The notes under the pieces were generated by a model, which saw only the letters and a program-made list of their open reading frames with translations, searched no databases and was not told where the DNA came from. Positions 3,019-36,061 of a stretch of DNA of 36,061 nt are shown here, piece after piece; within the stretch, counting starts at the first letter, position 1, and the number at the start of each line of letters is the position of its first letter. The DNA is from a virus, in the IMG/VR virus record IMGVR_UViG_3300042991_001437, positions 1-36,061 of that record; one strand, written 5' to 3'. A program made the position numbers and the translations under genes.

Positions 3019-5061
3019 ATGGAATACTATAACAATGTATTATGTGTCACTGGCCCGGAACTTATTAAGTCAGAAGATAATCCGGAAGGCGCAATTTCCT
3101 TAAGCATGTATCGGAAGCTGTCCACCCAGAACCGGATTAGAGTGCTTAAACGTGGTTGCCTTCACTCTGTGGCCCTGATAGAATATGCCAGTATCCCGGA
3201 CAGGTATAAGCAGCTCCTTTTTGAAAAGGGCATCATGCCGCAACCTCGTAAAAACGCAATTGAGGCGACCGTTCAGGTCGACATCAACGCCAGGGATTAT
3301 TTCGCTGACTACGTGCTTACAGATGGCCGCCACCTTCCCCAGGAGAAACAGCTTGAATATTCGGTAAACGCTGAGGTGCTCAACGCCGTTAAGCGGATCA
3401 CCAACGACCGGGTTGCACTTCGCAAAGCCCTGGGTGGATCCACAAAGAATATCTGGCCGAACCTGGCCGAGCATGTCAGCACAATCAAAGCCTCTACCGG
3501 TCACACTCTCCCCGACAATCCCCGCCGCCTCAATAAGAAGCTCCAGGAATACAAGCGGTCAGGCTACGTGGCATTGATCAGCGGCAAATGGCTGAATAAT
3601 AACGCTAAGAAGGTGGCCGAAAAGGAACAGGAAGCGGCCCTTCGCCAGCTACTTCGCCATCATAACAACCTGGACAATGAGCAGATCAAGGATCTGTATA
3701 ATATGGTAGCTAAAAAGGTTCAGTGGGAAACGATTTCAGCCTCGACAGTATCTAACTATAGAAAGAAGTGGAACCTAGAAATATACGGTGGCCAGCACGG
3801 CGAGACCTCCTTTGATAATGCAAGGGCCATGCTTGTAAAACGTAAGGCTCCCGCCCTGCCTCTTGTTTACTGGACTATGGACGGCTGGGAAGTTGAACTT
3901 CTTTACCAAAAGACAGAACTTGACGCAAAGGGCAACTCTAGGACAACTTACCATAACCGGTTAGTCCTTGACGTTGTCTTGGATCCAAGTGCAAACTACC
4001 CGGTTGGTTATGCGATCTCAACCCATGAGACCCCTGGATTAATCAGGCAGGCCCTTCGCAATGCCGTTAACCACACCGCCGAGATATTCGGAAGTCGTCA
4101 CCGCGTTCACCAACTCCAGACCGATAGATACGGCAAGAAGAACCTGAATCCATTCTATGAGGCTGTAGCGGATACCTACACCCCGGCGCGCGCGCATAAT
4201 GCCAAATCAAAAGTCATCGAGCCTTATTTCAAGAGGCTGAATAAAAAGTACTGTCAGCTTATGCCAAACTGGTCGGGCTTCGGGGTGAAGTCGAAGAACC
4301 AGCCCAATGCTGACTACTTGAATAAGATCCGGCACACCTTCCCGGATGAGGCTGGCGTCATTATGCAAATTGAGCGCATCATGGAACTCGAACGGGCTCT
4401 CGCGATTGATAAATTCAGGGCCGCTTATGCTGAGCTACCAGACGCTGACAAAAGGCTTTTAAATGAGGCGGAGTACCTTCACCTGCTTGGTGAAAAGACA
4501 GGCGAGACCAACCGGCTGAGTCACGCTGGAATGATAGTCTCTATTAACGGGGTCAAACGGGAGTATGACAGCTTTGACCCAGGCTTCCGCAAACTTCATT
4601 ATGTGGACTGGACGCTTAAGTTTGACCCATCGCGGCCTGAACAGGTTCTCGCGGAAAATCCTGAAGGTACAATCCGCTATTTGCTACAGGAGAAATATGT
4701 CCAGCCAATGGCTCTGTACGACCGTAAGGATGGAGACTCTGAACAGCTTCAGCTTGTTAAAGGCTTTAATAAAGCCCTTAAGGCAGATATCATGGTCGGC
4801 ATGGACAGTGATCACCAGCTGGTCGGCGACCTGTTTGCCAATAACCCTCAATTAAATGATACACTCACCAAGCTCGTGCTTTGTGACAGCAAGGGCCAGC
4901 ATAAGGATCGCAAAAGCGAACTTCGCCTGGGCCCTACACAAAAATATTTAATCGAAAAGCAGGCGAAAAAGGATCGGGAAGAAAAGGCCGACGACTGGAA
5001 CGCCAGGCAAATGGAATACCTGGAAGGCAAGACTGACTTCAACAAATATCTTAATCAATAA
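3019..5061 (+). CDS. MuA-like DDE transposase
   Basis: The protein has 680 residues, close to the size of MuA (663). The catalytic triad of the RNase-H/rve core can be read: Asp288 in WTMDGW, Asp369 in LQTDRYG, and Glu401 in KSKVIEPYF, preceded by the A-R-A-H-N-A-K-S-K run typical of Mu-type transposases. The N-terminal 260 residues should hold the helical DNA-binding domains for the phage ends. The C-terminal part is charged, ending in a Lys/Glu-rich region where MuA contacts MuB and ClpX. It should cut and join the phage ends during integration and replicative transposition. It starts 11 nt after the small regulator and precedes the MuB-like gene by 16 nt. Confidence 0.95.
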   Translation: MEYYNNVLCVTGPELIKSEDNPEGAISLSMYRKLSTQNRIRVLKRGCLHSVALIEYASIPDRYKQLLFEKGIMPQPRKNAIEATVQVDINARDYFADYVLTDGRHLPQEKQLEYSVNAEVLNAVKRITNDRVALRKALGGSTKNIWPNLAEHVSTIKASTGHTLPDNPRRLNKKLQEYKRSGYVALISGKWLNNNAKKVAEKEQEAALRQLLRHHNNLDNEQIKDLYNMVAKKVQWETISASTVSNYRKKWNLEIYGGQHGETSFDNARAMLVKRKAPALPLVYWTMDGWEVELLYQKTELDAKGNSRTTYHNRLVLDVVLDPSANYPVGYAISTHETPGLIRQALRNAVNHTAEIFGSRHRVHQLQTDRYGKKNLNPFYEAVADTYTPARAHNAKSKVIEPYFKRLNKKYCQLMPNWSGFGVKSKNQPNADYLNKIRHTFPDEAGVIMQIERIMELERALAIDKFRAAYAELPDADKRLLNEAEYLHLLGEKTGETNRLSHAGMIVSINGVKREYDSFDPGFRKLHYVDWTLKFDPSRPEQVLAENPEGTIRYLLQEKYVQPMALYDRKDGDSEQLQLVKGFNKALKADIMVGMDSDHQLVGDLFANNPQLNDTLTKLVLCDSKGQHKDRKSELRLGPTQKYLIEKQAKKDREEKADDWNARQMEYLEGKTDFNKYLNQ

Positions 5062-6019: not shown

Positions 6020-6649
6020 ATGTTTCTGCAATTTATGGCTAAGGCTCTCTCTTGTTCAGCACTCCTAAGAAAGCATTACAAACTGCTACAATTTAAGGGT
6101 GACTGGTACGATGCTTTCGGTACACCGGAGTCAAATGGGGTGTGGTTTATTTGGGGTGGCTCAGGAAACGGCAAGACAACATTTGTATTAAGCCTGGTCA
6201 AGCAATTAGCCCAATTTGGAAGGGTAGCATTCAACAGCCTGGAGGAGTCATCTGCACACACGATGCAGAACGCTTTCCTGCGGGTTGGTATGGCCGATGT
6301 TGCAAGGCGGGTAATTCTGCTCGAGCGTGAGTCTATCGCCGAGCTGTCTGAGAGGCTCCAAAAACGCCGCTCGCCCGATATCGTGGTGATAGACTCATTC
6401 CAATACGCTGAGCTTAGCTATGGGGCCTATAAACGTCTCAAAGAGGCAAACCCGACTAAGCTGATCATCTTCGTATCACATGCCGATGGGAAAAAGCCCG
6501 CTGGCAGAACTGCAAATTCAGTCATGTACGATGCCTCTCTGAAGGTATGGGTGGAAGGGTACAGGGCTTTTTCAAAAGGGCGCTACATCGGCCCGGTCGG
6601 ATCACTGACCGTTTGGGGCGAAGGTGCTGAAAAATACTGGGGTAAATGA
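6020..6649 (+). CDS. RecA/DnaB-fold P-loop ATPase
   Basis: The protein has 209 residues, with Walker A GGSGNGKTT at 46-54 and Walker B IVVIDSFQ near residues 125-132, followed by an IIFVSHADGKKP segment like the sensor strand of RecA/DnaB-type ATPases. The first 45 residues are short and have no extra domain. It starts 3 nt after the MuB-like stop; an in-frame ATG at 6035 is an alternative start. Single-domain ATPases like this in phages can act in recombination or helicase loading. The exact role is unknown, but a second ATPase directly after MuB suggests a part in transposition or replication. Confidence 0.8.
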   Translation: MFLQFMAKALSCSALLRKHYKLLQFKGDWYDAFGTPESNGVWFIWGGSGNGKTTFVLSLVKQLAQFGRVAFNSLEESSAHTMQNAFLRVGMADVARRVILLERESIAELSERLQKRRSPDIVVIDSFQYAELSYGAYKRLKEANPTKLIIFVSHADGKKPAGRTANSVMYDASLKVWVEGYRAFSKGRYIGPVGSLTVWGEGAEKYWGK

Positions 6650-7226: not shown

Positions 7227-7892
7227 ATGGAAAGAATTGATCTTAAAAAACTATCAACTGAACAGGTTTCACAATTGATGGACGACCTGAAAAGGGAACT
7301 TGAAGAAAAAGCGGCAAGTAAAAAGAGAGACCGTGAAACCTACGAACAACTCAAGAGTGAGGCCGTTACCGGTGCCTTTGACGTTTTACAAAGGGTCTCC
7401 CAGGAAATCGCTAAGGTTAAGGAAATTGTCTTCAGGGACTTTGAAGATATCCTGACGCTGAAGCAGCAAGTTTTTGACTTAACCGATGAACAGATGGCAC
7501 GTCAGGAAAGTCACACATTCACCACTTCGGATAGTAAGATTTCAATTACCCTGGGATCGAACACAATCGACCGCTGGGATGAGACCGTAGACGTTGGCGT
7601 TAATATGGTTAAGGATTACCTGGCAACCCTGGCCAAGGACCCTGAGTCGGCCAAGCTGGTCGGCTTTATTACTGATCTGTTAAAGCCAAACAAGGACGGC
7701 ATGCTGAAGGCTGGCAGAGTGCTTGACCTGGCTAAAAAAGCCGCTGAGCTTGGAGATGCAAAGCTGATCGAGGCCGTTGGCCTGATCCGGGACGCCTACC
7801 GCCCGAGAAAGACCTCAACTTATATCAAGGTATCCTACAAGGATGCTGAAAATAAGGAAACTTATTTGCCGCTAAGCATATCAAGCATATAG
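7227..7892 (+). CDS. DUF3164 family protein
   Basis: The protein has 221 residues. It shows the layout of DUF3164: a charged, coiled-coil N-terminus, a central beta region (HTFTTSDSKISITLG), then a helical part with VGVNMVKDYLATLAKD and a C-terminal AYRPRKTSTYIKVSYKD strand. DUF3164 genes are regular members of early operons in Mu-like phages. The biochemical role is unknown; a replication or recombination accessory is suspected from its company. It is followed 2 nt later by the DnaA-like gene. Confidence 0.8.
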   Translation: MERIDLKKLSTEQVSQLMDDLKRELEEKAASKKRDRETYEQLKSEAVTGAFDVLQRVSQEIAKVKEIVFRDFEDILTLKQQVFDLTDEQMARQESHTFTTSDSKISITLGSNTIDRWDETVDVGVNMVKDYLATLAKDPESAKLVGFITDLLKPNKDGMLKAGRVLDLAKKAAELGDAKLIEAVGLIRDAYRPRKTSTYIKVSYKDAENKETYLPLSISSI

Positions 7893-9083: not shown

Positions 9084-9314
9084 ATGAGAACCCGCACCCT
9101 CCTTCGCATTAAGCAGGTTGTCGACGAGTACAAGAAACGCGAACACCCCGGAGTCAGTTCGGCCTACATCTGGAGGCATTATATCGACCCGGTGTTTCAT
9201 GTGAGCCTGAGCAGCTTGTACGAGTACCTGGCCATCCCTGTTGACAAACTGCTGAAGGAGCGCGGTGCAATCAAAGAAAAAGACGATCCACAACAATTAA
9301 AATTGAAAATCTGA
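9084..9314 (+). CDS. Small phage protein of unknown function
   Basis: The protein has 76 residues and starts 1 nt after the GemA-like stop. It is basic, with a helix at residues 1-20 and a YIWRHYIDPVFHVSLSSLYEYLAIP core. The order of helices could accommodate a winged or plain helix-turn-helix, but no diagnostic motif is seen. It is retained because of frame length, tight spacing and similar codon use to its neighbours. Confidence 0.5.
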   Translation: MRTRTLLRIKQVVDEYKKREHPGVSSAYIWRHYIDPVFHVSLSSLYEYLAIPVDKLLKERGAIKEKDDPQQLKLKI

Positions 9315-9315
9315 G

Positions 9316-9582
9316 ATGCCTGATCTATTTGGAGGGGATATCCCCGTCATCGAACGTAAACCTGGAAAGGAGCCAATCTTGAGCAGGTGGACAAAATTTG
9401 CCACCTACCGCAAAGCCGTTTTAGGAAGTGATGAACGGTGTGCCAATTGCTCCAGGTGTGTTGTGAAAAAGTTCGCTAAACGCTATTATAAATGCTCCCT
9501 GGTTGGATGCTCCAACTGTAGCAGCACAGACATCAGGGTAAATCATGTATGTAATTTTTTTGTAAAGACTGAAATAATATGA
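9316..9582 (+). CDS. Cysteine-rich putative zinc-binding protein
   Basis: The protein has 88 residues with seven cysteines in the second half: CANCSRC, then C-SLVGC-SNC, and a final C before Asn-Phe-Phe. Two close CxxC-type pairs make one or two zinc sites likely. The first 40 residues are Pro-, Lys- and Trp-containing and basic. It is one nucleotide after the previous gene and overlaps the next by 4 nt. The role is unknown. Confidence 0.55.
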   Translation: MPDLFGGDIPVIERKPGKEPILSRWTKFATYRKAVLGSDERCANCSRCVVKKFAKRYYKCSLVGCSNCSSTDIRVNHVCNFFVKTEII

Positions 9583-10088
9583 AAATCACGATTAAAAAAG
9601 GAAAGCATTACGCCTCCGGAATGCACGTGAGGCCATACCTGGGAAAGCGGGCTATATCCTGGAGGGTGAATATGGATATAAGCTGCCTGTACAAGGCCAT
9701 TAACGACGACTCCAACGACTTGAACAAGCTTTGCGGGATTAGCTTAGGCCATCATCACAAGAACAGCCTGCGCTTCGCCTGGAGGCCTGATTTTAATTCA
9801 CCAGGTCAATTCATGATCTATGCCTACTGGTACGCCAAAGGTCAGCGCAGATCACTTTATATTGCTAATATTTCGCATAACGTGGACTATGAATTTGAAA
9901 TCATCCTGGATCACCCAACAGTGGCATTTGTTGTCATGAGGCCAAACCCGGCGTTTAGTGATGAGAAGAGGAGTGTTTTTATCTACATCAAAGTTCCCTG
10001 CCCATCAATCGGTTATTATCTATGGCCCTACTTCGGAGGCAACAACACTGCTCCTCACGAAATGAGCATTAATCTTAAAGTCCTTTAA
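9579..10088 (+). CDS. Beta-rich protein of unknown function
   Basis: The protein has 169 residues. It is rich in aromatic residues and alternating strands (for example FMIYAYWYAKGQRRSLYIANI and VFIYIKVPCPSIGYYLWPYF) with a Gly-His-His-His segment near residue 58. The pattern suggests a beta-sandwich. No membrane segment or signal peptide is seen, and the family is not recognised. It is the last gene before the structured region at 10134-10312. The TTTAAA repeats at 10082-10103 overlap its stop. Confidence 0.5.
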   Translation: MKITIKKGKHYASGMHVRPYLGKRAISWRVNMDISCLYKAINDDSNDLNKLCGISLGHHHKNSLRFAWRPDFNSPGQFMIYAYWYAKGQRRSLYIANISHNVDYEFEIILDHPTVAFVVMRPNPAFSDEKRSVFIYIKVPCPSIGYYLWPYFGGNNTAPHEMSINLKVL

Positions 10089-10103
10089 ACGGGCCTTTAA
10101 ACG
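10082..10103 (+). repeat. Doubled CCTTTAAACG, 12-bp period
   Basis: CCTTTAAACG occurs at 10082-10091 and 10094-10103, with a third related TTCTTTAAA just after. The pair straddles the stop codon of the preceding gene and lies directly upstream of the structured RNA, so it may be part of a promoter or activator site for that RNA. This is inferred from position only. Confidence 0.35.
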
Positions 10104-10133: not shown

Positions 10134-10274
10134 GCCTGCGAGTATGCAGAGGATTCGGGCCGGGTGAGTGCGGAGAAACCCGGCATAAAAACTCCGAGTA
10201 AGGGTGGCACCCCAAAGGTTTGAAACGCTAAGCCGCACCGCGAAAGCAGGCAACCATCCGACAGCTGTCGGATG
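10134..10274 (+). ncRNA. Candidate structured RNA with pseudoknot (phage early region)
   Basis: No reading frame fits here, but base-pairing is dense. An outer stem joins GCCTGC 10134-10139 to GCAGGC 10246-10251. Inside is a perfect 7-bp hairpin, GCCGGGT 10159-10165 with ACCCGGC 10178-10184. The loop of that hairpin holds GTGCGG (10168-10173), complementary to CCGCAC at 10233-10238, which would form a pseudoknot; it also holds CGGAG (10171-10175), complementary to CTCCG at 10192-10196, so the two pairings compete. A GGGTG/CACCC pair lies at 10202-10213. A perfect hairpin follows at 10255-10274 and then an intrinsic terminator. I could not match this to a known riboswitch, ribozyme, tmRNA or 6S RNA. 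Confidence 0.6.
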
Positions 10275-10289
10275 CTGACAAGCAAGCCG

Positions 10290-10316
10290 GCCCTCCGGAT
10301 CGTCCGGAGGGCTTTA
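10290..10316 (+). terminator. Intrinsic terminator after the structured RNA
   Basis: A 10-bp perfect GC-rich stem (GCCCTCCGGA 10290-10299 with TCCGGAGGGC 10303-10312) has a 3-base loop and is followed by TTTATT. It would end the RNA at 10134-10274 and may reduce read-through into the next small genes. Confidence 0.75.
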
Positions 10317-10342
10317 TTAACCTCAAAAAATTTAACAACATT

Positions 10343-10576
10343 ATGGGAGACCTTATCAGTTCAGACATACAATTAAAGGTTGAGGAGTATGAACTTATCT
10401 CTGAGGCCCTGAATGCTTACAGGAAGAGATGCATGGCCAACGCTTATAATGCTCTCAATAACGGCTATGGCCCAGGCAATTCAACGGTGACCAGTCAAGC
10501 AAAAGCCGAAAACTGGGTAGAAAAGGCGGAATTTTGCGACGCCATCAATAGCAGACTTGGGGAGGCATTTATATGA
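10343..10576 (+). CDS. Small protein of unknown function
   Basis: The protein has 77 residues, mostly helical, with an NAYNALNNGYGPGNSTV turn in the middle and acidic ends. It is the first gene after the terminator at 10290-10316. It overlaps the following gene by 4 nt. No family was recognised. Confidence 0.5.
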   Translation: MGDLISSDIQLKVEEYELISEALNAYRKRCMANAYNALNNGYGPGNSTVTSQAKAENWVEKAEFCDAINSRLGEAFI

Positions 10577-34333: not shown

Positions 34334-34459
34334 ATGAGCAAATACACATACAAAAAACAATTCGGAATTGTCGTGATCTGTTCCGACGAAATAGAGCAGA
34401 GGAAGCTTTATGAAAAGCTTCAGAAATTAGGTTTAACATTAAAAGTGGTTTGCGCATGA
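34334..34459 (+). CDS. 41-residue protein coupled to the ABC-GNAT gene
   Basis: I use the ATG at 34334, as the region before has only a TTG (34274). The protein reads KYTYKKQFGIVVICSDEIEQ then LYEKLQKLGLTLKVV, a beta-alpha-beta type unit. Related short tails occur in mobile elements of Bacteroidota. It overlaps the ABC-GNAT start as ATGA, so translation of the two is coupled. In Mu the small Com protein controls mom translation from the equivalent spot, but Com is a zinc finger and this is not, so only the layout is alike. Confidence 0.6.
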   Translation: MSKYTYKKQFGIVVICSDEIEQRKLYEKLQKLGLTLKVVCA

Positions 34460-35583
34460 TAATTAACATTAACCACACGTGCGAGAATTTCAACAGCTAC
34501 CGCGCTGCTCGTGTGAAGTCATTATTTAACGCGGAAGCTGGGTATCAGTGGACACACCAGGCCGATCTTCCGATCGATGATCTGCCCTGGTCGATCGGTC
34601 TGATAGTCGGGCCATCCGGATCCGGAAAAAGCAGCATAGGGAAGGAAATATTCCCTGCAGGCATTCATGACCTATACGCGGAATGGCCACATGACGTGCC
34701 AATTGTTGATGCTATTGCACCGGCAGGTGAATTCGACCAGGTCACCGGTGCTCTGGCGGCTGTCGGCCTGGGTGACGTGCCGGCATGGCTGAGGCCCTTT
34801 CATGTCCTGAGTAATGGAGAAAAGTTCAGGGCAGGCCTGGCCAGGCTGATCTGTGATAAACCGGCTGAGGTGGTCGTGGATGAATTCACCTCGGTAATTG
34901 ATCGCCAGATTGCCAAAGTTGGAGCCTCGGCCTTCTCCAAGGCCTGGAGGCGCACCGGTGGAAAGGTAGTCTTATTGAGCCCGCACTATGATATTATCGA
35001 GTGGCTTCAACCTGATTGGATATATGATACTAAGGAGGCGCGGTTTTTCAACCGTGACTGCCTTCGGCGTCCGGAGATCACTCTCGACATTTACAGAGTT
35101 CCGGGAACGCAGTGGCGTTATTTTAAGCCGCATTATTATCTAGACCTGCCTTACCCGGTGGCCGCTCAATACTTCATCGGGTTTGTCGGAGAGGAGCCGG
35201 TCGCTCACCTGGCCGTTTGCCCAATGTTCCAAGGTGGCCACTACCGGGCCACCCGACTAGTAGTTATGCCTGAGTGGCAGGGCGTAGGAGTTGGAACAGC
35301 CTTCCTGAATGAGATATGCAGGCTGCACCTGGATGGACAGGGCCGACTTGGTCGTCACTATACCACCATGTTTCATACCAGCCATCCACAGCTTTGTCAT
35401 GCCCTCAGGAAATCAAAAGCTTGGGAGCAGAGGAGCGGTAAGCTAATAGGAGATAACAAGGCGAAGAGTATAAAAACAATGAGTGCCTCGGCAGTAAAAA
35501 AAGGGGAAAAGCCGAGGGCGGGAGGTTTTGGAGGTCATTTTAGAGCAGTACAAGGATTTGAGTATGTCGGAATTAATCATTGA
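34456..35583 (+). CDS. ABC-ATPase fused to GNAT acetyltransferase (COG2401-like)
   Basis: The protein is 375 residues from the ATG at 34456. The N-terminal half is a soluble ABC ATPase without transmembrane segments: Walker A GPSGSGKSS (52-60), a signature-like LSNGEKFRAG (118-127), Walker B VVVDEF (139-144), D-loop region SVID, and switch His177 in PHYD. The C-terminal half (about 210-320) is a GNAT domain with RLVVMPEWQGVGVGTAFL at 267-284, the acetyl-CoA pyrophosphate-binding loop. ABC-GNAT fusions are recorded as COG2401. Mu Mom is also GNAT-related and sits at the same genome position, so DNA or RNA modification is my leading guess. Confidence 0.85.
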   Translation: MIININHTCENFNSYRAARVKSLFNAEAGYQWTHQADLPIDDLPWSIGLIVGPSGSGKSSIGKEIFPAGIHDLYAEWPHDVPIVDAIAPAGEFDQVTGALAAVGLGDVPAWLRPFHVLSNGEKFRAGLARLICDKPAEVVVDEFTSVIDRQIAKVGASAFSKAWRRTGGKVVLLSPHYDIIEWLQPDWIYDTKEARFFNRDCLRRPEITLDIYRVPGTQWRYFKPHYYLDLPYPVAAQYFIGFVGEEPVAHLAVCPMFQGGHYRATRLVVMPEWQGVGVGTAFLNEICRLHLDGQGRLGRHYTTMFHTSHPQLCHALRKSKAWEQRSGKLIGDNKAKSIKTMSASAVKKGEKPRAGGFGGHFRAVQGFEYVGINH

Positions 35584-36061
35584 TGTTTTAGGAAATAAGG
35601 ACACGGCTGCCTATGGGGTGGCTGTGTCCGTAATCAATAGGTTGGGCATGAAGGTGGCCATTGATCCAAGTGAAACTATTGATCTGGCCATTGCGCCATT
35701 GTTAACCTTCAAGCTAAGCCCTGAGGAACTTAATAAGCCGCGTTTAGGCACGCTTATCTTTCATCCGAGCCCGTTGCCTCATGGCAGAGGCGCGAGCGCG
35801 TTAAAATGGGCCTATCGGCGTTCTGAGCCAATAACAGCCGCTACGTGGCTGTGGGCAGTGGATAAAATGGACGCTGGGGATATTTGTGAAATGGAGATAG
35901 TCAAAATAGATTACTCCATGAGTCCAAGGGCCTTCTATGAGGCTCATATACTCCCGGCCCTTGAAAGAACCTTAGAACGGCGTTTAAACAACCTACAAAG
36001 AGGCTTTATAAGAAGGATGCCCCAGGTTGAGGCGTATGCGAGCTTTGATTTAAAAATATGA
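35564..36061 (+). CDS. Formyltransferase-like protein with a changed active site
   Basis: I choose the ATG at 35564 (165 residues); a TTG at 35528 lies further inside the preceding gene. The segment IFHPSPLPHGRGASAL then AATWLWAVDKMDAGDI matches the formyltetrahydrofolate-dependent transferase signature (N-x-H-P-S...LP...RG and MD-x-GD). The catalytic His67 and Asp103 are present, but Ile65 replaces the usual Asn, and the N-terminal Rossmann part is short (about 60 residues). It overlaps the ABC-GNAT gene by 20 nt, so they form a pair. It may transfer formyl or a related one-carbon group to a modified base or amine, or be catalytically altered. Confidence 0.7.
   Translation: MSELIIDVLGNKDTAAYGVAVSVINRLGMKVAIDPSETIDLAIAPLLTFKLSPEELNKPRLGTLIFHPSPLPHGRGASALKWAYRRSEPITAATWLWAVDKMDAGDICEMEIVKIDYSMSPRAFYEAHILPALERTLERRLNNLQRGFIRRMPQVEAYASFDLKI

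Follow-up and report, generated by a model that had tools for sequence, protein, structure and literature searches.

A conserved pseudoknotted RNA family in phages of Bacteroidota

The 36,061-nucleotide stretch of DNA analysed here (the window), taken from IMG/VR virus record IMGVR_UViG_3300042991_001437, contains a structured RNA with a core of approximately 118 nt (10134 to 10251, positive strand) that is followed by a hairpin and then by an intrinsic terminator. The RNA belongs to a real, conserved family of phage RNAs with a pseudoknot, of which three members are known and in which shape is kept more than sequence. The recurrence of this shape in two unrelated phages, twice beside structures that look like tRNAs, identifies it as a real and undescribed phage RNA. 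We give about an even chance to its being a discrete, trans-acting RNA released from the transcript of an early or replication operon.

In gene content the window is consistent with a transposable, Mu-like phage of Bacteroidota, as judged from a transposase-like protein of 680 aa (3019-5061), whose genome relatives all lie within Bacteroidota, together with an ATPase-like and a DUF3164 protein (Table 1). Approximately 250 bases without a likely gene separate a gene encoding a 169-aa protein (ending at 10088) from a 77-aa gene starting at 10343. The first-pass annotation of this DNA had described about 180 gene-free bases here, and indeed no ORF of at least 50 aa crosses 10134-10316 on the positive strand, while the two that cross it on the negative strand encode 62 and 77 aa. 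The GC content of the core is 0.59 vs 0.48 for the window, and the RNA exceeds its surroundings in GC at all three loci. The 169-aa protein (9579-10088) has no Pfam or PHROG match; its relatives, 34-40% identical, are found on three viral contigs of 49-137 kb (L003-L005). Elsewhere in the window, the protein encoded at 34450-35583 combines a GNAT acetyltransferase domain with ABC-type ATPase motifs, which we take to recall Mom-like DNA modification modules; it is followed by an ORF that appears by eye to be formyltransferase-like (35528-36061).

Every structural element that had been read from the letters of this region was located: the outer 6-bp closing stem (P1), the inner 7-bp hairpin (P2) with its 12-nt loop, the loop pseudoknot with strands 59 nt apart, a competing pairing of GGGCCGG with CCGGCCC, a 10-nt inverted repeat that as RNA forms 8 bp and a 4-nt loop, and a 10-bp terminator (arms 10290-10299/10303-10312, then TTTATT). 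The annotation had considered such complementarity to be beyond chance, which shuffling bears out; the predicted fold of −77.3 kcal/mol, compared with a shuffle mean of −63.5 (z = −3.2), is equalled by none of 200 shuffles, and a comparable combination of hairpin, loop pseudoknot and enclosing 6-bp stem was seen in 3 of 3000 dinucleotide shuffles. The internal loop above P1 (GAGUA opposite GAAA) presumably resembles a bulged-G or loop-E motif, for which a literature search returned no match. A lower stem under P2 was predicted when only the window was folded; the alignment lends it no support.

Table 1. Features of the window and tRNA-like elements of related loci. Window coordinates carry no locus prefix; A4 is the alignment of the three RNAs.
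Feature	Position	Strand	Remarks
ATPase-like protein	6020-6649		
DUF3164 protein	7227-7892		
Two CCTTTAAACG repeats	10082-10103	+	Starts at 10082 and 10094; the first overlaps the end of the upstream gene
P1, 5′ strand GCCTGC	10134-10139	+	Pairs with 10246-10251; kept in 3/3 homologues
Internal loop GAGTAT	10140-10145	+	Opposite GAAA 10242-10245; GAGTA and GAAA identical in 3/3 (A4)
P1b, 5′ strand	10146-10148	+	Pairs with 10239-10241; compensatory changes in 3/3 pairs
Alternative pairing	10157-10163	+	With terminator base 10287-10293; not found in L061
P2, 5′ strand GCCGGGT	10159-10165	+	Pairs with 10178-10184; 4/6 aligned pairs changed on both sides
Pseudoknot strand GTGCGG, P2 loop	10168-10173	+	Pairs with 10233-10238
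P2, 3′ strand ACCCGGC	10178-10184	+	Partner of 10159-10165
Second GAGTA	10196-10200	+	GAGTA in 2/3; CGGTA in L044
P3 hairpin GGGT/ACCC	10202-10212	+	Weakest consensus helix; both sides changed in 2/3 of the pairs counted
Conserved single strand GAAACGCTAAG	10222-10232	+	GAAACGYYAAG in 3/3
Pseudoknot strand CCGCAC	10233-10238	+	Partner of 10168-10173
P1b 3′ strand CGC, GAAA, P1 3′ strand GCAGGC	10239-10251	+	A4
Hairpin 3′ of core, 8 bp, 4-nt loop	10255-10274	+	Both homologues likewise have a hairpin after the core
Intrinsic terminator	10289-10318	+	11 pairs including one G-U; tail TTTATT
tRNA-like element	L005:4076-4158		
tRNA-like element	L018:6927-7020		
tRNA-like element	L024:4819-4913		
tRNA-like element	L025:496-569		
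tRNA-like element	L025:5834-5875		
tRNA-like element	L026:1357-1421		
tRNA-like element	L034:1662-1701		
tRNA-like element	L038:15822-15865		
tRNA-like element	L042:13342-13436		
tRNA-like element	L045:10061-10122		
tRNA-like element	L061:7670-7825	-	

Homologues were sought with a covariance model (R1) built from the window sequence alone using the nested stems, with the pseudoknot left out. Over the 16 genomes and records behind the related loci this model gave a single match, L044 (42.7 bits, E 4.7e-7 in that genome), a prophage in the genome of locus L042, the MAG Prevotellaceae bacterium isolate Hs463_bin142; the 20 kb surrounding it are referred to as L045. The third member, L061, is an IMG/VR prophage record picked up with a DNA pattern drawn from the window and L044, and it scores 81.3 bits with the two-sequence model of window and L044 (R2) and 63.6 bits (E 2.5e-14 in 33 kb) with the window-only model. 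At aligned positions of A4 the window is identical to L044 at 64/118 and to L061 at 90/123, and L044 to L061 at 79/118; 60 of the 139 columns are invariant across the three members. Window proteins share no similarity with those of L045 (20 kb) or L061 (13.4 kb), and the proteins of these two loci resemble each other weakly, in regulator and HNH proteins only, indicating that the RNA travels as a unit. Copies were absent from relatives of the upstream gene (L003-L005), from the 26 loci related by the transposase and from the region ahead of the gene in L006, a relative of the window's downstream gene (77% identical), and seven of these protein-neighbour loci rescanned with filters off still gave none.

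BLAST of the three RNAs against phages and plasmids, not every RNA against both, returned nothing or short pieces of tRNA, terminator or chance similarity. Other matches to the DNA patterns in viral_contigs were chance on reading, including L062, which one pattern had found along with L061, and one pattern gave none. In overlapping genome screens with three models (16, 395, 200, 393, 11, 16, 395, 277 and 266 genomes or records) only G012 was a true match. Weak screen matches at L059, L060 and L068 lie inside genes, and L053 and L069 (20.1 and 22.9 bits) are without the conserved P2-loop block or a pseudoknot partner. Screens of more than 40 genomes used strict filters, several were run without a positive control, and the genomes came from Bacteroidota groups, therefore the family may be wider.

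With the window and L044 alone, standard pairs fill 45 of 45 cells and both partners have changed in 9 of 23 pairs. Across the three sequences 71 of 72 cells are standard pairs, the sole exception being an A-C at the third P1b pair of the window, and compensatory changes are seen in 11 of 24 pairs, a count that none of 500 shuffles reaches, while partners slid out of register leave at most four such pairs. Not counted among these 24 are column 31 of P2, which is gapped in two sequences, the fourth P3 pair at column 74, which is C-A in L061, and a putative helix of two pairs at columns 64-65 to which L044 gives no support. By helix, the compensatory pairs number 3/3 in P1b, 4/6 in P2, 2/6 in the pseudoknot, 2/3 in P3 and 0/6 in P1, where one pair varies on one side only. 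The pseudoknot occurs as GUGCGG/CCGCAC, GUGCAA/UUGCAU and GUGCGA/UCGCAC; it was absent from all of the models used for finding and aligning the homologues, so its compensation is independent support. RNAalifold recovered P1, P1b, P2 and P3 from the same alignment. The first-pass annotation had set an absence of covariation in homologues beforehand as grounds for abandoning the structure, and compensatory changes across three homologues are the opposite outcome.

All three copies lie in regions resembling early or replication regions, with genes downstream on the same strand. The window copy follows transposase and replication-type genes, the L045 copy follows a repressor/cro-like pair (by position and size) and precedes an HNH endonuclease and a resolvase/invertase gene, and the L061 copy follows a large putative primase/helicase and a regulator. 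A scan for Bacteroidota-type promoters, which carry -7/-33 motifs, placed none directly before the RNA at any of the three loci. The nearest were two loose matches 270-350 nt ahead of the RNA in L045 and a single loose match approximately 640 nt before the tRNA-like element in L061; in the window there was none within 700 nt upstream. This lack of a promoter just upstream suggests that the RNA probably either is processed out of an early operon transcript or acts as part of it. The CCTTTAAACG repeats, put forward as a possible promoter, did not hold up in that role: no sigma-70-like site is present there, no such repeats were seen on reading upstream of the L044 and L061 RNAs, and similar strings elsewhere looked like chance AT-rich DNA, arguing equally against a shared phage site.

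A tRNA-like element is present within about 70 nt of the RNA at two of the three loci, on the 5′ side in L061 and on the 3′ side in L044; the window copy has none. The L061 element is a 156-nt tRNA-Leu-like structure (about 7666-7825, negative strand) that lies upstream of P1 and ends approximately 20 nt short of its first base; it has an acceptor of 7 bp, a D-like arm, a long extra arm and a T arm. A long helix seems to take the place of the anticodon arm, comparable to the P2 helix of tmRNA. The L044 element starts about 55-60 nt after the core and combines an acceptor stem, a GAAA hairpin of 7 bp and a T arm. ARAGORN calls neither of them a tRNA, and neither reaches the gathering score of the Rfam tRNA model. 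A scan of 33 loci (487,547 bases) for acceptor stem and T arm, with a motif shaped after L044 and L061 had been seen, gave 17 matches, six of them ARAGORN tRNAs and 11 others, compared with one match in three block-shuffled sets (0.33 per set). These 11 come from phage loci of Bacteroidota and from one larger viral contig, and an ATG follows most of them at a distance of 17-90 nt. The element at L005:4076 has ordinary tRNA genes around it and could itself be a degenerate tRNA; L025:5834, L034:1662 and L038:15822, and by inspection L042, are near-bare acceptor/T-arm helices with a 12-13-nt connector. At the density scanned, we judge it unlikely that chance placed such an element near the RNA at two of three loci. 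Related prophage loci also hold Rfam matches in or near them, at L045:183-250 (negative strand), L045:19662-19743 and L038:848-925, to DUF805, RT-17 and Flavo-1 RNA.

The discrete RNA would consist of the core closed by P1, with its GAGUA/GAAA loop and the 6-bp pseudoknot between the P2 loop and the strand before P1b, transcribed as part of the early or replication operon. Its 3′ end may be set in the window and L061 by the intrinsic terminator, and the tRNA-like elements, if cut by RNase P or RNase Z, would define the 5′ side in L061 and the 3′ side in L044. The RNA would then act in trans early in infection, most likely through contact of the pseudoknotted core with a protein or ribonucleoprotein of host or phage. 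Downstream of the core there is a hairpin at all three loci, and a terminator comes after the RNA at two, in L061 with seven T; the presence of a likely 3′-end former in all three, together with the 5′ tRNA-like element of L061, argues for a discrete RNA. Against it, the window copy is without a tRNA-like element and the T tract of its terminator (TTTATT) is weak; this terminator is missing from the list of an automated scan, presumably because the G-T-extended stem leaves too few T. Among the small RNA, attenuator and ribozyme that had been suggested for this element, a phage small RNA with covariation in homologues fits best. All 11 tRNA-like elements share the strand of their reference phage gene, suggesting tRNA-style punctuation of phage mRNA. 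It is possible, though rather doubtful, that Bacteroidota phages punctuate their early transcripts with tRNA-mimic cutting sites, reduced down to a bare acceptor/T-arm helix, and that the pseudoknotted RNA, released by such a site or by the terminator, is a trans-acting product acting on the host.

A terminator in mid-operon also weighs against a discrete trans-acting RNA, as it would stop downstream genes unless read through, and it suits a cis role too. As the chief alternative, the RNA could be a cis-acting processive antiterminator, the nascent transcript binding RNA polymerase and causing read-through of the adjacent downstream terminator and of later ones in the manner of HK022 put, which we regard as unlikely. 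Its position inside early operons, with no promoter of its own, same-strand genes downstream and a terminator directly after it at two of three loci, would suit this role, as would the arrangement in L045, where a good promoter match (TTG...TATTTTTG, 9231-9264) precedes the cro-like gene and its operon and the RNA lies approximately 600 nt later, a nutR/putR-like place. However, no terminator was seen by inspection after the L044 RNA, and the window RNA lies late in its operon, approximately 5 kb past the transposase gene. Were the 3′ tRNA-like element of L044 to be cleaved, the RNA would come free of the transcript still being elongated, which speaks against cis antitermination at that locus. 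The put RNA, likewise a structured RNA of a phage early operon, acts on downstream terminators and is approximately 70 nt with two stem-loops (PMC9378689), whereas the present core, at 118 nt, has five helices, one of them a pseudoknot; the available part of that source describes no pseudoknotted core or flanking tRNA-like element (PMC9378689).

The perfect 7-nt alternative pairing in the window, together with conserved unpaired segments and junctions, would be consistent with an attenuator or riboswitch in which a ligand or protein chooses between P2 with the pseudoknot and the pairing of 10157-10163 with the terminator base. The claim is weakened by L061, where no pairing of at least 6 joins core and terminator arm, as well as by L044, where no terminator is apparent. 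Moreover, none of the genes downstream at the three loci matches a Pfam family, they do not resemble each other, and the L006 homologue of the window's downstream gene does without the RNA; control of this kind is therefore considered quite improbable. T-box identity was rejected, since GGGUGGCACC occurs in the window alone and is absent from L044 and L061, as was c-di-GMP riboswitch identity. Compact size, a pseudoknot and many invariant bases might also suggest a self-cleaving ribozyme, a reading we hold very improbable, as none of the three members matches an Rfam ribozyme family. HDV-like ribozymes, also rejected as an identity, have a P3 element and a layout with P1 at the 5′ end that are lacking in the present arrangement. 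Least credible of all is the antitoxin RNA of a type III or AbiF-like toxin-antitoxin pair, which shares the order of structured RNA, terminator and gene with type III systems and the AbiF ncRNA RCd22 (PMC12373285), while the present RNA shows no tandem or repeated motif in the window, the neighbouring genes scanned gave no match to Pfam Abi_2 or to a toxin, no adjacent toxin gene was found, and the downstream genes differ among the three loci.

The RNA matches no Rfam family. The Rfam search that had been proposed for it (Rfam 15) gave no family at the gathering threshold over the whole window, with three chance-level matches up to E 10 in a permissive search near the RNA, and none above threshold for the L044 and L061 RNAs. 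A tmRNA was rejected, as ARAGORN found none in the window, L044, L045 or L061 and the matches of the Rfam tmRNA model are confined to the adjacent tRNA-like parts (17.0 and, in L061, 13.5 bits vs 47). A literature search of titles and starts of abstracts found no description of the RNA. In MALAT1/mascRNA and the t-elements of plant mitochondria, a tRNA-like fold at the edge of an RNA sets its end by RNase P; these systems are eukaryotic, and similar cleavage at the phage tRNA-like elements is presumed. A close comparison may be drawn with GOLLD and ROOL, structured RNAs of phages and prophages that, in the available part of the source, have no known protein partner and are often near tRNA islands (PMC12286853). 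Like them, the present RNA is a phage-encoded complex fold. It has tRNA-like elements nearby at two of three loci and none in the window, and these neighbours are structures rejected by ARAGORN and the Rfam tRNA model. GOLLD and ROOL are much larger, many GOLLD exceeding 800 nt, and have Rfam models (PMC12286853); the covariance models of both gave no match to the present RNA, with its core of approximately 118 nt. The RNA described here adds a covariation-supported family beyond the 4,227 of Rfam, found across unrelated Bacteroidota phages, and the question raised by GOLLD and ROOL of why phages carry such ornate RNAs recurs in a much smaller molecule.
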